Assembly (NCBI RefSeq): GCF_036345015.1
Contig: NZ_CP084098.1
Span: forward strand, 2,555,326 to 2,619,325
DNA length: 64,000 bases
Origin: Cyanobacterium sp. Dongsha4
GTDB taxonomy: Bacteria; Cyanobacteriota; Cyanobacteriia; Cyanobacteriales; Cyanobacteriaceae
Direction of reading: 5' to 3'
The position numbers and the translations under genes were made by a program. Of the stretch, positions 4,269 to 13,332 are shown one piece after another. Each line of letters begins with the position of its first letter. The stretch's first letter is position 1. The notes below the pieces were generated by a model. That model was not told where the DNA came from, did no database searches, and saw nothing but the letters and a program-made list of their open reading frames with translations.

Positions 4269-6692
4269 TCATATCATTTTTGTATCGGAAAAATCAACAT
4301 TAGTTAAATTCGCACCATCAAAATTTACCCTAATCAAATTCGCACCTATAAATTTAGCGTTTTTTAAGTTAGCATTGCGAAAGTCAATATCTTTTAAATC
4401 TGCATTGATAAACTTTGCTTTTTCTAAGGAGGTTTGTTGAAAATTAATTTTTTCTAAGTTACTACCAATTAAATTAATATTATCTAAGCAACACCCCTTA
4501 AAACTTTCCCCCGATAAACGTAAATATTTAAAATTTCGATTTCCCAAGGCAAATCGTTTCAATAACTCCTCTTTTTCACTAGCTTTGATGATATTCTCAG
4601 GTAAATTACGTAAGGTTAAATTAAAACTATCTCCTTTGACTGCTAAAACTTCTTTTAATTCCGAATACATCACATAGTTTCCCACACCGCTAAGATACAC
4701 CCATCCTTTACTGCGAGTTAAAGCCACAAATAGTTGATTCCTTAAACTAATATTATCTTCTTCTTTAGCGATGCGATCGCATCCTATAATATAAACCAAA
4801 AATGCTTCATTTCCCTTTGCCTGATAAACATTACAAACCGTTACCGCCCCATCTTGCCAAAATTGACGAGAATTATCCTGATGAGGAAAATATACTGAAA
4901 TGGCATTTCTTTCTAAAACATCCCGACATTGATTTTCAATAATTTGACTTTCATAACCATTCCCTAAAACAATTACTAAAATTTGCCGACTAGGACGTAA
5001 ACCATCATATCGTAGATTATATAAAATTTTTTCTGCTAAATAATTTAACTCCTCTTGACGAGAATAAAAAGACTGAAAATTGATTATTTCTCCCCTATCA
5101 AAATTATCTAACGGATGAATATATTTATTATTTTTTCTCTCAATGGTAATATTATTATTTAACTGTAAATTACCCTTCAACTCATAACCCATTTCCCGCC
5201 AATTATGAGCAGATTTTATCATACTTAAAACACCCAAAGGACGGCACCAACCCATATTAATAGCAAAAGCAGTATTGATAATTTTTTTAGGAGTGCGATA
5301 ACTATTAGTTAAAGTATAAATTTTTTCTGATGGATGCTTAGAAGGTAAAATATCAGCAAATAATCCCCTTTGATAACTTTCACCAATTTGATTTAAACAT
5401 TGAATTTCATCATAAGCATAAATAAGTTTTTTTCTCTCTTTTCCATTGATATAATTAGGAGCTAAAGCATTATAAACTAAATACAAAAAAGGTTGTTTAC
5501 CTTGAAAAAGCCATCGGGAAGATAAAAAATCTTGAGCCTCATCTAAAATTATTAAATCAAATAAAGTAGGAATTTTTTTGCTCTCTAATAACTGACAACA
5601 AACTTCTGCCAAACTATCATTAGGTGATTGACTATAAGTATCATTAACTCTTAGTTTACTCGATTTAGTTTGATGACATATTAAACTATAAAAACCTTCT
5701 TGATTTTTATTACCCCAGCCATGAAGAATTAACAAATTTTTATTAAAAGGATCATATCCTATTTGATTATTACTATAATGTCTTAACCACTTATCAATTA
5801 AAGTTATTATCTGTTCATATAAACTACGACTAAAAAAGATAAAAGCAATTTTCCATTCAGGATATTTTAAATGAAAATAAGCCGCTTTTTGACATAAAAG
5901 TAATGTTTTGCCTGTTCCAGCAGTTCCTTTAATACCCTCAATTGCATTAATATTTTTTTTACTAATTATTTCCTGTTTTAAATCTAAATGATGATAATAA
6001 TTAACTAATTTATTAATAATCTTTCCTTTACTATTATCTTTAGTTAAAACTCTATAAGTAGGAGGAGTAATAACTGATTTTCCGGTGATAATAGATAGTA
6101 ATGTTTTCCATTGTTGGCTATCTAATTCCTTTCCTTTAACCACTGTAGAAGTGTTAATAATTTTTTCTTTCAACGAGTTTAAATTAAGTAAATCATTAGC
6201 AAAAATAATAGGAGGATTACTAGGTAATTTATCAAAACCTTTTTCTTGCCATGCTTCGCTTTTGATGAAGGGTAATGCAATTAAAACCCGTCCTTTGATT
6301 TGTTGAGATAAACTAGGTTCAGTAGAAAAATAATCTAAAATATTAAAAAGTTGATTTTCAGCTTGTTGATAAGGATTTCCTTGATTAGTATAAAAATTTT
6401 GATACTGCCAAAGATGTCCATTTATGCTTACTATTTGCTCAATATTTATTGCTTTTACTTCTATAATAACAACGCCTATCTTTTTCTGAAAAATAAGTAT
6501 GTCTGGCTCTTTTCTTTGATTTTTAGTATTAAATAAAGGATAACGCCAATAAGCTAAAATCTCATGATTAATAAAAGCATTTTTTATTGATTGCCAAACA
6601 AAATATTCCCCTTTTTCACCCTTATTATCTAACTTCTCTGTAGCGATAAAACAGCTCTTAGGCAAGTTTATATCAGTCATTACTAGACACAA
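4269..6692 (-). CDS. NERD nuclease-UvrD-like SF1 helicase-pentapeptide repeat fusion
   Basis: An 807-residue three-part protein. Residues about 25-140 are a NERD (nuclease-related) domain with GEKGEYFVWQSI and EPDILIFQKKIGVVIIEVKA, which carries the acidic/lysine pattern of restriction-like folds. Residues about 250-690 form an SF1 helicase core: Walker A GIKGTAGTGKTLLL, Walker B DLIILDEAQDF, motif IV-like TNSYRTPKKI, motif V CNVYQAKGNEAF and motif VI LFVALTRSKGWVYLSG. Residues about 735-807 are pentapeptide repeats (A-[D/N]-L-x-x-x-x-F style, such as ANLKNAKFIGANLIRVNFDG). Single methionines near the N-terminus leave the start slightly uncertain. NERD-helicase proteins are thought to act in DNA repair or defence. 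The pentapeptide tail is uncommon. No defence partner is adjacent. Confidence 0.85.
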   Translation of the reverse strand: MCLVMTDINLPKSCFIATEKLDNKGEKGEYFVWQSIKNAFINHEILAYWRYPLFNTKNQRKEPDILIFQKKIGVVIIEVKAINIEQIVSINGHLWQYQNFYTNQGNPYQQAENQLFNILDYFSTEPSLSQQIKGRVLIALPFIKSEAWQEKGFDKLPSNPPIIFANDLLNLNSLKEKIINTSTVVKGKELDSQQWKTLLSIITGKSVITPPTYRVLTKDNSKGKIINKLVNYYHHLDLKQEIISKKNINAIEGIKGTAGTGKTLLLCQKAAYFHLKYPEWKIAFIFFSRSLYEQIITLIDKWLRHYSNNQIGYDPFNKNLLILHGWGNKNQEGFYSLICHQTKSSKLRVNDTYSQSPNDSLAEVCCQLLESKKIPTLFDLIILDEAQDFLSSRWLFQGKQPFLYLVYNALAPNYINGKERKKLIYAYDEIQCLNQIGESYQRGLFADILPSKHPSEKIYTLTNSYRTPKKIINTAFAINMGWCRPLGVLSMIKSAHNWREMGYELKGNLQLNNNITIERKNNKYIHPLDNFDRGEIINFQSFYSRQEELNYLAEKILYNLRYDGLRPSRQILVIVLGNGYESQIIENQCRDVLERNAISVYFPHQDNSRQFWQDGAVTVCNVYQAKGNEAFLVYIIGCDRIAKEEDNISLRNQLFVALTRSKGWVYLSGVGNYVMYSELKEVLAVKGDSFNLTLRNLPENIIKASEKEELLKRFALGNRNFKYLRLSGESFKGCCLDNINLIGSNLEKINFQQTSLEKAKFINADLKDIDFRNANLKNAKFIGANLIRVNFDGANLTNVDFSDTKMI

Positions 6693-11379: not shown

Positions 11380-11832
11380 TTAATTGACTTTTAAAGTCCA
11401 ATCTTCTTCAATGGGTTCATAACCAATATCAATTTCCTCCTTTTCAATAATACTTCTAACTTTTTCAAAAACCTCTATTCCTTTAGGTCTAATAGCTGCA
11501 ATAATATATTCTTGATCTCGTTTTTCCCTAACATCTCTAATTAACTGCAAAAAAGCTGAATCAGAATTTTCCAGTTGATTTGTAGGAATAAATTCTTTAC
11601 TAGGATAAATAACCACCCCATCTTCCTTGCATTCTATATAACGAGGCTGTTTTTGTTGATTTGCACCATCTTCGCTTTGTGCAATAATCTTAACTTCAGG
11701 GTTAGAATCTAAAGTTTGAGTGCTTACTACAATAATTAATAAAATTAAACTGCCAATAGTACAAGCTAAAACCGAGAGAAATGGAAACAATTCTAGTTCT
11801 ATTTTTTTATGAGATTTTCTAGTCCTAGACAT
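11380..11832 (-). CDS. ExbD/TolR-like (or ZorB-like) single-pass membrane protein
   Basis: A 150-residue protein with a short basic N-terminus (MSRTRKSHKKIELELFPFL), one membrane helix (about 18-40, SVLACTIGSLILLIIVVSTQ) and a periplasmic alpha/beta domain, as in ExbD/TolR. It is encoded 66 bp downstream of a MotA/TolQ/ExbB-like gene on the same strand, so the two probably form an ion-driven motor or energiser. Oddly, the membrane helix has no aspartate at the place where ExbD, TolR and MotB carry the essential proton-binding residue. The nearest acids are the glutamates just before the helix. The OmpA-like peptidoglycan domain of MotB/ZorB is also absent. Confidence 0.65.
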   Translation of the reverse strand: MSRTRKSHKKIELELFPFLSVLACTIGSLILLIIVVSTQTLDSNPEVKIIAQSEDGANQQKQPRYIECKEDGVVIYPSKEFIPTNQLENSDSAFLQLIRDVREKRDQEYIIAAIRPKGIEVFEKVRSIIEKEEIDIGYEPIEEDWTLKVN

Positions 11833-11898
11833 AATGATATTTTGGATATTTAATTATATTTAAAGTTTCTTAATTTTAATAATTCTTCATTCTTCATT

Positions 11899-13332
11899 TT
11901 AGTTATCAATTTGTTCCACTAAACGAATAACTCTGGGTTTACTTAAATCCTGTAATGTGGGTTGAATACCCGTAATTTTGTCTTGAATATTGACCAATGT
12001 TTTTTCAATATCTCCAACATTATGTAAAACTTCGACTATTTTCTCTAGGTTAGATTGTAAAGATTTTAACTCAGCAATTCTAGCACTAGATGCTTCTAAA
12101 GAAGTAACTTTTTCTTCTAAACTGATGGCCGCTTTATTTAATTGTTGACTGATAGCTTGAGATGCTTCCACTAAACCTTGACTGTTAGTTTCGTTATTTT
12201 TTTGGACTAAATCCACTAATTCTTTTATGTTAGTAATTATGGACTGATTCAAATCATTTTGTTGTCCGAAGGTTTGAATAAATTTGTTTCTATCTTCTAA
12301 GATAGCGGCATTAACTTCTTTAATTGTATTAAGTAATTGTTGCTCTTGTTCATAAATTTTCTGAAACTGATTCACAAATTCTGTTACTAAATTTTTAGCG
12401 GCTTCTTGAGCATAAATTTGGGCGGGAGAAATCAATTCTTCTGGGGTGGGAAGTGCTTCTTTTATTGGTTTAATTAATTCTTCTTTTGTCGGTAATTTTT
12501 TCTCAAGGGTTGTATTGATTGTATTAATAATAACTTCTGTATTGAGGTCATTTTTCTCGCCAGTTTGTTTCTCATTTAAACGAGGTAAAATATAATCGTT
12601 AATATAAATATCTGTTGCTAAAAGTAAGTTTGATTCCATCCTTTCAATTAAAACAAGGGGAATCATTACAACCACAGATAACAATAAAGCCAATAGGGTG
12701 GTATCAAAAGCCACTGCCAAACCACTGGTAACAGTTCCTATACCTTCTTTTATTTGGTCTATTTCGGCGGTATTTTCCAAAAAGCCAGTAAAACCATTCA
12801 CCGCACTGCTAATACCTAATACTGTACCAATAAAGCCCAATAGAGGAATAGCCCATACTAAAATTCTTGGCACTGCGTAGGAAGATTCAGAGGCACTTAG
12901 ATAAAATGATGAATCATCAAGGGCAAAATCTGTAACGGTTTTTCTACTTCCTGAGTTGATATAGGCATTAATGACTCTCCTTAAGCGATTAGTTATCATG
13001 GTAGAGGTGCGAGATAAGTCTTCTTGAAGATGGAGAAGTTGCACTGATTGATGATTTTCAAAGGAAAATTCTTCGGGGATTCCTAACTTTTTAAAAACTT
13101 TATTTTCTTTGCTAATTTTTAGATATTTATCAATAGTAATAGTAATAACTAAAAAAGCACAAAAAACAGTTAAAAATTGGGTAAATCCTCTTTTTAATAA
13201 CAGCATTCCCACATAAGTTTCTTGAAAGGGTAAAGCCAAAACATAAATTAATATTGTGAGGACTAAGGCGGCAATTATTGTATTAAGAAAATTAATGTCT
13301 AATTCTTGACGGTTATTATTTTTTTGACCCAT
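11899..13332 (-). CDS. MotA/TolQ/ExbB-family channel protein with long coiled-coil tail
   Basis: A 477-residue protein. Two N-terminal membrane helices lie at about 15-70. The TolQ/ExbB signature occupies about 160-235: PLLGFIGTVLGISSAVNGF, a G-I-G-T-V-T-S-G-L-A-V-A-F-D-T-T stretch, and a fourth helix, TLLALLLSVVVMIPLVLIE. The C-terminal 230 residues are soluble and heptad-rich (about 250-460), predicting a long cytoplasmic coiled coil. This shape resembles ZorA-like motors more than the compact ExbB. The partner is the downstream ExbD-like gene. No ZorC/ZorD, TonB or Tol genes are adjacent, so the energised process is unknown. The start is the ATG at 13332. Confidence 0.75.
   Translation of the reverse strand: MGQKNNNRQELDINFLNTIIAALVLTILIYVLALPFQETYVGMLLLKRGFTQFLTVFCAFLVITITIDKYLKISKENKVFKKLGIPEEFSFENHQSVQLLHLQEDLSRTSTMITNRLRRVINAYINSGSRKTVTDFALDDSSFYLSASESSYAVPRILVWAIPLLGFIGTVLGISSAVNGFTGFLENTAEIDQIKEGIGTVTSGLAVAFDTTLLALLLSVVVMIPLVLIERMESNLLLATDIYINDYILPRLNEKQTGEKNDLNTEVIINTINTTLEKKLPTKEELIKPIKEALPTPEELISPAQIYAQEAAKNLVTEFVNQFQKIYEQEQQLLNTIKEVNAAILEDRNKFIQTFGQQNDLNQSIITNIKELVDLVQKNNETNSQGLVEASQAISQQLNKAAISLEEKVTSLEASSARIAELKSLQSNLEKIVEVLHNVGDIEKTLVNIQDKITGIQPTLQDLSKPRVIRLVEQIDN

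Follow-up and report, generated by a model that had tools for sequence, protein, structure and literature searches.

The window, a 64,000-nt stretch of the Cyanobacterium sp. Dongsha4 genome, encodes on its minus strand a protein in which a NERD nuclease is followed, in a single frame, by an SF1/UvrD-type helicase and a pentapeptide beta-helix of about 100 residues. This triple fusion is real. The plus-strand frame over the same interval is interrupted by many stops, the residues of nuclease and helicase are intact in the minus-strand frame, and the same architecture occurs full-length in other genera at about 40-59% identity. An earlier note on this DNA had placed the gene at 4269-6692, which is correct, without naming the strand, and had described a nuclease-related domain, a complete UvrD-type helicase and a pentapeptide tail in one chain, in agreement with our data. 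It had suggested to search other genomes for the same architecture, and at least 95 of the 388 genomes of the order carry the tailed form. Of three findings that it named as speaking against its proposal, two do not apply: the tail is conserved among orthologues, and nuclease residues align, with E29, D64, E78 and K80 all present. The reading that we favour, with slightly less than even confidence, is a single-polypeptide chromosomal helicase-nuclease that is vertically inherited in part of the order and has a docking or regulatory tail, a housekeeping role being somewhat likelier than an anti-phage role. The features of the gene are listed in Table 1.

Table 1. Position of the gene and of its predicted domains and motifs in the window.
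Feature	Position	Strand	Basis and remarks
Whole ORF	4269..6692	minus	807 codons from TTG 6692; likely start ATG 6680 (803 aa); the ORF of a congener begins at the same place
NERD-type PD-(D/E)XK nuclease domain, residues ~14-200	6093..6653	minus	Family profile PF08378, model, fold matches
E29, predicted nuclease active site	6606..6608	minus	74/74 tailed rows; 81/81 in the larger set
D64, predicted nuclease active site (RKEPD motif)	6501..6503	minus	Alignment
E78-V79-K80, ExK of predicted nuclease active site	6453..6461	minus	E78 and K80 in 74/74 tailed rows
SF1 (UvrD/Schlafen-like) helicase, residues ~241-695	4608..5972	minus	UvrD_C_2, PADLOC 'Helicase', fold matches to SLFN11/14, UvrD, AddAB
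Walker A GTAGTGKT, residues 256-263	5904..5927	minus	K262 in 132/132 rows
Pentapeptide-repeat tail, residues 706-807, cap helix first (as in cyanobacterial stand-alone pentapeptide proteins)	4272..4577	minus	PF00805, Alr5209/HetL models, HetL fold
Conserved tail face N720, N740, K760, K780 (and I742, 762, 782, G783), 20-residue spacing = one helix coil	4353..4535	minus	Conservation and model

TTG, GTG and ATG are in-frame start candidates near the 5′ end of the ORF. Since the frame of the congener opens at the same place, the ATG was taken as the probable start and is likely to be the best of the three. Comparison to this congener, a single pair, gave a dN/dS of 0.14 for the whole protein and of 0.11 for the tail, where the two sequences differ by 8 synonymous and 4 other substitutions.

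The NERD model of Pfam did not match the window's own protein. PF08378 was above its cut-off in seven of nine NERD-SF1 family proteins scanned, among them two of three tailed proteins (L053 and L016; no match in L087) and the tail-less L155, L156, L158, L162 and L104 (no match in L164), while the DUF2290-type helicase L166, which was scanned for comparison, showed no NERD match. The window protein has the residues that are invariant in the family alignment A1, and E29, D64, E78 and K80 make up a complete predicted PD-(D/E)XK site. Among the 21 tail-less rows of the smaller alignment E78 is kept in 17 and K80 in 13. When the nuclease domain was folded alone together with 10 relatives, a pTM of 0.79 was obtained, and the best fold matches were the PD-(D/E)XK nucleases Can2 (Z 9.6), Cdn1 (9.1) and McrBC (7.9); Card1 and XisH were also aligned (Z 7.4-9.6 for all five). 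None of the matches listed is named as NERD, which has no bearing on the assignment. Because model confidence is moderate and Z stays below 10, the assignment of the nuclease fold rests jointly on the motif, the family profile and the model.

Evidence for the helicase comes from several lines. Walker A, DEAQD, YDEIQ, SYRTP, QAKGNEA and VALTRSKG motifs were seen by eye, UvrD_C_2 of Pfam matched with E 3e-8, and the PADLOC model 'Helicase' (PDLC03002) matched residues 190-695 on positions 144-643 of its 707-position profile (1.1e-78). The SF1 motif residues K262, D384, E385, Q387, D428, Q431, R466, K626, G627 and R660 do not vary across the 132 proteins of the family. The model superimposes on UvrD with Z 24.8 and 3.5 A over 363 residues; AddAB (Z 21.9) and AdnAB (Z 20.1) also match. 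For the full-length model the pTM is 0.56, and the packing between the domains is not resolved in it. It is likely that the predicted helicase-nuclease has a DNA-processing activity.

To follow the history of the tail we calculated a tree of 132 proteins, from which the tail and the catalytic columns had been removed, and rooted it on haloarchaeal and Gloeocapsopsis plasmid proteins, an outgroup of our choice. It is a quick tree without bootstraps, in which some plasmid branches are long, and L157 and L159, which meet, may be misplaced. When rows were collected for alignment, proteins below 500 bits (the partial L023, the stop-broken L072, the divergent L011-L014 and a second helicase each at L107 and L108) were left out, and proteins of identical sequence were represented once. 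All 81 tailed rows form one clade with an SH-aLRT of 100, and the tail label changes only once over the rooted tree; Deinococcus and other plasmid forms branch outside the tailed clade. The simplest reading is that the tail was gained once, by fusion to an ancestral tail-less NERD-SF1 enzyme. A broken copy on a Chondrocystis plasmid (L163), which has no tail in the next ORF, stands outside the tree.

The four nuclease residues E-D-E-K are complete in 81 of 81 tailed rows, compared to 26 of 51 tail-less rows. Within the tail-less sister clade of 38 rows 14 keep all four, and 24 are without at least one of them, whereas each of the 38 has a full set of SF1 residues. Since the single change of the tail label amounts to one independent pair, the association between tail and nuclease retention is a plain observation.

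The gene is unevenly distributed. Of the 15 genomes of its own family, 4 gave a match at E<=1e-30; only three of these have the tailed form, and the fourth (G010) has divergent copies without tail only. Within the order 185 of 388 genomes match, and the number of tailed genomes given above, a lower bound, is a hand count of genomes with a copy that reaches residue 786 or beyond. Among the matches listed, tailed and tail-less copies occur together in 11 genomes, and one more genome (G241) contains a tailed copy and a second copy with internal stops. This patchy presence implies that the gene is not essential. In the phylum sample outside the order, matches below 1e-100 were restricted to two genomes (G587 and G428), both tail-less, and weaker ones reached 1e-60 at best; the G428 genome has 9% contamination. 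In a plasmid-only collection 79 records matched, 20 of them over at least 80% of the query, and the pentapeptide tail was absent from 10 of 10 plasmid relatives read at full length. Full-length tail-less plasmid relatives stem from Deinococcus, Haloarcula, Halapricum, Leptolyngbya, Nostoc, Calothrix and Gloeocapsopsis. Four phage records matched, each in the tail region only.

The tailed proteins follow their hosts. Over 77 tailed rows the host family label changes 17 times for 18 families, which is the minimum, while shuffling of the labels gave a mean of 55.8; 40 tail-less rows show 13 changes for 11 families (minimum 10). The window copy lies on a contig of 4.25 Mb. Among 40 tailed loci that were retrieved, 16 are on contigs >3 Mb and the others on shorter ones, which may be chromosomal or not. 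The best reading of these data is that the tailed proteins are vertically inherited with host families, unlike a mobile defence gene.

Recurrent neighbours were clustered for 77 loci (56 tailed, 21 tail-less). Neighbours that recur next to tailed genes are lineage-specific, and those that can be named are housekeeping genes. NCBIfam assigned two of 10 such neighbours to magnesium protoporphyrin methyltransferase (both tested) and one each to SelO/YdiU, adenylate kinase and a stand-alone pentapeptide protein; one UptA/DedA-like protein and one ABC exporter stayed below the curated cut-offs, and three had no match. PADLOC was applied to 150 of 181 eligible neighbours from 40 tailed loci, where neighbours that exceed 900 aa or are cut by the end of the locus were omitted, and nine loci were listed for exclusion because they nearly duplicate others. 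Among 25 of 27 families listed this resulted in single cases and in eight 'mad2' matches, which in our view are cross-hits of the ChlM methyltransferase. Proteins of a defence type near tailed genes are a Cas7b-like and a Cas5b-like one, each seen once, and a GmrSD_N gene adjoins one tailed copy (L076). In the surroundings of the window gene defence models gave nothing beyond weak cross-hits of ZorA and LolE type, and Pfam found no DUF2290 among the 10 neighbouring window ORFs. The window protein itself gave only weak GajB matches, and no GajA or OLD-type partner, and thus no Gabija system, was seen among the neighbours scanned.

The scan of 118 neighbours of tail-less genes yielded 59 families, versus 27 on the tailed side (25 of each listed), and among those listed are Csx1 (3), Helicase (2), PD-T4-6 (2), MkoA (2), mad6 (2) and Cas12f-type models (3). 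That more defence families occur near tail-less genes is only a lead, as the reach of the two scans differs (two versus three genes per side) and some of the models presumably also pick up ordinary kinases or transposon genes. Taken as plain counts of neighbours, these results do not support the defence setting that the earlier note had envisaged: the named recurrent neighbours are housekeeping genes, PADLOC matches are mostly single and inheritance follows host families, with the Cas7b-like, Cas5b-like and GmrSD_N neighbours as exceptions.

Inheritance with host families, the small number of defence neighbours and the lack of DUF2290 next to the window gene argue against a resident nuclease that would act as a single-gene system against phages or plasmids, nick and unwind invader DNA in the manner of Nhi and use the tail as a sensor or for self-protection. 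We nevertheless regard this explanation as fairly plausible, if less likely than the favoured one, since the core models matched (C3a187 with 1.7e-14, 'Helicase' with 1e-78) are defence candidates, tail-less relatives occur on plasmids and presence is patchy. Moreover, an ATP-dependent helicase together with a DUF2290 protein is reported to inhibit T7 (PMC9122126), and Nhi is described as a single-gene nuclease-helicase (PMC12904381).

What distinguishes the window protein is its tail. PF00805 (Pfam Pentapeptide) matches it with E 3e-19, and the Alr5209/HetL models match from residue 708, far under their curated cut-offs. Its modelled fold is a quadrilateral beta-helix like that of HetL (Z 19.5 at 1.5 A), with a further match to MfpA (Z 17.2). 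Pentapeptide proteins are described as four-sided rods with four repeats per coil (PMC8145042). The pLDDT is 82-94 from residue 731 on and 49-73 in the cap and the first repeats. Of the four sides one is strongly conserved in its outward positions. In 80 tails N720 is found in 77, N740 in 78, K760 and K780 in 75 each and I742 in 76, and these positions coincide with the modelled strands 720-722, 740-742, 760-762 and 780-782. The truncated tail of L175, one of the 81 tailed rows, was left out of these counts. The mean entropy at position i-1 is 0.32 bits on the conserved side versus 1.66-1.86 on the other sides, and among all 1820 four-position subsets this face has the lowest surface entropy. 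Thinning to 20 rows, so that each family label was represented once, had little effect (N720 20, N740 20, K760 20, K780 18). When tails were retrieved through the cap pattern, 61 of 66 had the NNKK ladder.

Among other pentapeptide proteins with the same cap NNKK is present in none of four, a fifth one being a fragment of the family. One of the four, the 233-aa L077, reads DNKN, a partial likeness to NNKK. A K-K step of 20 residues occurs in 70 of 80 tails compared to 3 of 16 control ORFs, or 2 of 15 without the family fragment L072, the control set being small. The conservation of a single side on a rigid rod makes a binding function most likely, and docking by the tail is somewhat more probable than its absence. 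A precedent is the cyanobacterial pentapeptide protein HetL, which acts through binding the protein HetR (PMC7476756).

The suggestion of the earlier note that the tail might mimic DNA is not supported by our data, whereas autoinhibition or targeting by the tail in another way may still occur. Autoinhibition by such mimicry, in which the tail would fill the DNA site of the nuclease or helicase until displaced, would be in line with the fold shared with MfpA/Qnr, for which DNA mimicry is an accepted function (PMC8145042). By charge count, however, the acidic DNA-like surface of MfpA/Qnr is missing: net charge is +3 for the tail of the window protein, with a median of -1 and a range of -9 to 6 over 80 tails. 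As the tail is not acidic and its most conserved surface bears a ladder of lysines instead of acids, DNA mimicry is disfavoured, and we consider this explanation unlikely.

Fusion to a pentapeptide protein should be easy in a genome that has 27 further pentapeptide-type matches, all to the tail region of the query, and the tail might then be a neutral passenger without role in the enzyme. The fact that the tail label changes only once among 132 rows, a single truncated tail (L175) among 81, the face-specific conservation and the low dN/dS of the tail, known for one pair, make this improbable. An RNA-directed enzyme of the Schlafen-helicase type, with the tail targeting ribosomes or RNA, is very improbable, since SLFN11 and SLFN14 head the fold matches for the full-length model (Z about 25), next to a weak Pfam SLFN-g3_helicase match below cut-off, but align with an rmsd of 16-18 A over the whole span versus 3.5 A for UvrD, and the nuclease resembles restriction-type PD-(D/E)XK domains.

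We return to a vertically inherited helicase-nuclease with a docking or regulatory tail. The housekeeping and docking view is based on the intact nuclease residues in 81/81 tailed rows, the SF1 residues in 132/132 proteins, the single change of the tail label, the conserved face, inheritance with host families, housekeeping neighbours and the HetL-HetR precedent. We infer that DNA is the substrate and is cut, that docking occurs via the conserved face and that the enzyme has a housekeeping role in DNA processing. The SF1 motor would load on single-stranded or end-exposed DNA and translocate using ATP, and the NERD PD-(D/E)XK domain would cut or nick the DNA held by the motor. The pentapeptide tail would be a rigid docking rod, whose Asn/Lys/Ile face may bind a partner protein, another subunit or the protein's own body, and docking of this face could target or restrain the nuclease. 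The enzyme may serve to repair DNA ends or forks or to remove stray DNA. Genome maintenance is only slightly preferred over defence. Counted against this explanation are the patchy presence, the closest named models, which are defence candidates, and the few defence neighbours of tailed genes.

More specifically, and more tentatively, one-time fusion of a stand-alone pentapeptide protein may have made a mobile NERD helicase-nuclease chromosomal. The N-N-K-K/Ile face would license or target the nuclease, so that cutting was kept in tailed lineages and repeatedly lost in the tail-less sister. If this holds true, licensing by the tail would introduce a new principle into the regulation of helicase-nucleases, and a pentapeptide domain of cyanobacteria would, as in few other cases, have a defined task. 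Cyanobacteria have many pentapeptide proteins. According to a review a biochemical function is known for such proteins in only two cases (PMC8145042). In the present case the repeats are fused to an enzyme whose predicted activities can be assayed, the tail-less sister provides a natural control and the conserved face is mapped, which makes the job of the tail directly testable. In addition, a NERD-helicase architecture that the literature consulted treats as mobile immunity is here inherited with host families.

Our literature search for a NERD domain combined with a helicase and a pentapeptide repeat, which covered few subscription papers, retrieved no paper on the combination, and the word 'helicase' does not appear in the main text of the pentapeptide review PMC8145042. 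The view of the earlier note that the combination is not a characterised one thus stands for the triple fusion as a whole, but not for its NERD-SF1 core, which is a PADLOC candidate and has NERD listed for Nhi-like types.

The window protein has a UvrD-like motor in common with AddAB, AdnAB and RecBCD. These helicase-nucleases carry a PD-(D/E)XK nuclease. The window protein differs from them in the N-terminal position of its nuclease and in that only one motor was recognised in its sequence. The tailed gene sits in an order with RecC (PF04257) in 0 of 388 genomes, E. coli being positive as a control. A role as a replacement for RecBCD/AddAB was considered and dropped as a main claim, as the PF12705 nuclease family matches in 376 of 388 genomes including tailed families, so that mutual exclusion does not show. 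With HetL and Alr5209 the tail shares the cap and the quadrilateral beta-helix; the N-N-K-K ladder is absent, as judged by eye, from the HetL-like synthetic solenoids (not HetL itself) that were aligned.

A plasmid relative from Nostoc (C052, 29% identity) is immediately followed by a DUF2290 gene, and the surrounding stretch also contains DarT, type I restriction and VPA1262 genes. From this neighbour we infer that PDLC03002 represents the helicase of the Helicase-DUF2290 system, whose SF1 core would then be homologous to that of the window protein. The Nostoc relative (L166) has neither NERD match nor tail, and the window copy has no DUF2290 gene nearby. NERD is given for Mokosh type I and 'Nhi-like' defence types in Table 1 of PMC10952713. 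Nhi, which is described as mostly plasmid-borne and with anti-phage evidence (PMC11811056, PMC12904381), likewise combines nuclease and helicase in one protein, the window protein being likened to Nhi (SERP2475) by description, not by sequence. Closest are single-chain NERD+UvrD proteins, represented by C3a187, which matches residues 42-683, and by the RefSeq 'nuclease-related domain-containing DEAD/DEAH box helicase'. The window protein belongs to them by its N-terminal NERD domain, its catalytic residues and the SF1 motifs in the same chain. The NERD-SF1 core is therefore of an already known kind; the tailed family extends it at the C-terminus by a pentapeptide beta-helix of which one face is conserved, in the window copy on a 4.25-Mb contig, and this tailed form is the new part.

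In the rooted tree of 132 proteins, the tail-less clade of NERD-SF1 relatives that is sister to the pentapeptide-tailed clade has lost nuclease residues in 24 of its 38 rows, and the ten SF1 motif residues are kept in all 38. The nuclease-losing relatives are candidate nuclease-dead helicases. Example members are listed in the table.

In genomes G113 and G129, a tail-less copy with an altered nuclease lies close to, and convergent with, a second helicase, also of the SF1 type and a relative of the family. Two neighbours of tail-less copies were matched by the PADLOC model "Helicase", which we take to represent the helicase of the Helicase-DUF2290 defence system, and these are probably the second helicases of the two paired loci. 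No DUF2290 gene was identified at either of them. On a plasmid of Nostoc sp. C052 typed as conjugative (L166), a Helicase and DUF2290 pair adjoins DarT, type I restriction and VPA1262 genes; these surroundings are a plasmid-borne defence island.

Near other copies from the host family f33, ORFs similar in size to the psaA/psaB-type gene at L104 were found, and this may reflect conserved synteny.

Four family copies are interrupted or truncated, either through assembly error or through decay. The congener genome G014 carries a second, divergent copy that is apparently broken by internal stops (L012, L014).

The stand-alone pentapeptide protein at L077 has the ladder DNKN, partially resembling the NNKK of the fused tail, and is possibly a relative of the tail's donor.

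Features and loci of the family and its neighbours
Feature	Location	Strand	Remarks
Tail-less clade, example members	L097, L098, L105-L108, L110, L111
Tail-less copy and second SF1 helicase	L107:7004-8551, L108:11116-12633		convergent; G113, G129
Tail-less copy, f33	L104:14780-17011		few kb from psaA/psaB-type gene
Family copy	L072		G357; in-frame stop
Family copy	L175		G101; cut tail
Family copy	L150		G234; split frames
Family copy	L163		Chondrocystis plasmid; C-terminal part lost
Stand-alone pentapeptide protein	L077:6490-7191		two genes from tailed copy; above Alr5209 cut-off
MotA/ExbB-like 477-aa protein and 150-aa partner	window 11380-13332	-	weak ZorA match, 1.1e-5

Apart from the weak ZorA match, the scanned neighbours of the window gene gave no further defence matches. 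The MotA/ExbB-like protein and its partner are either a ZorAB-like pair or an ordinary one of the ExbB type.
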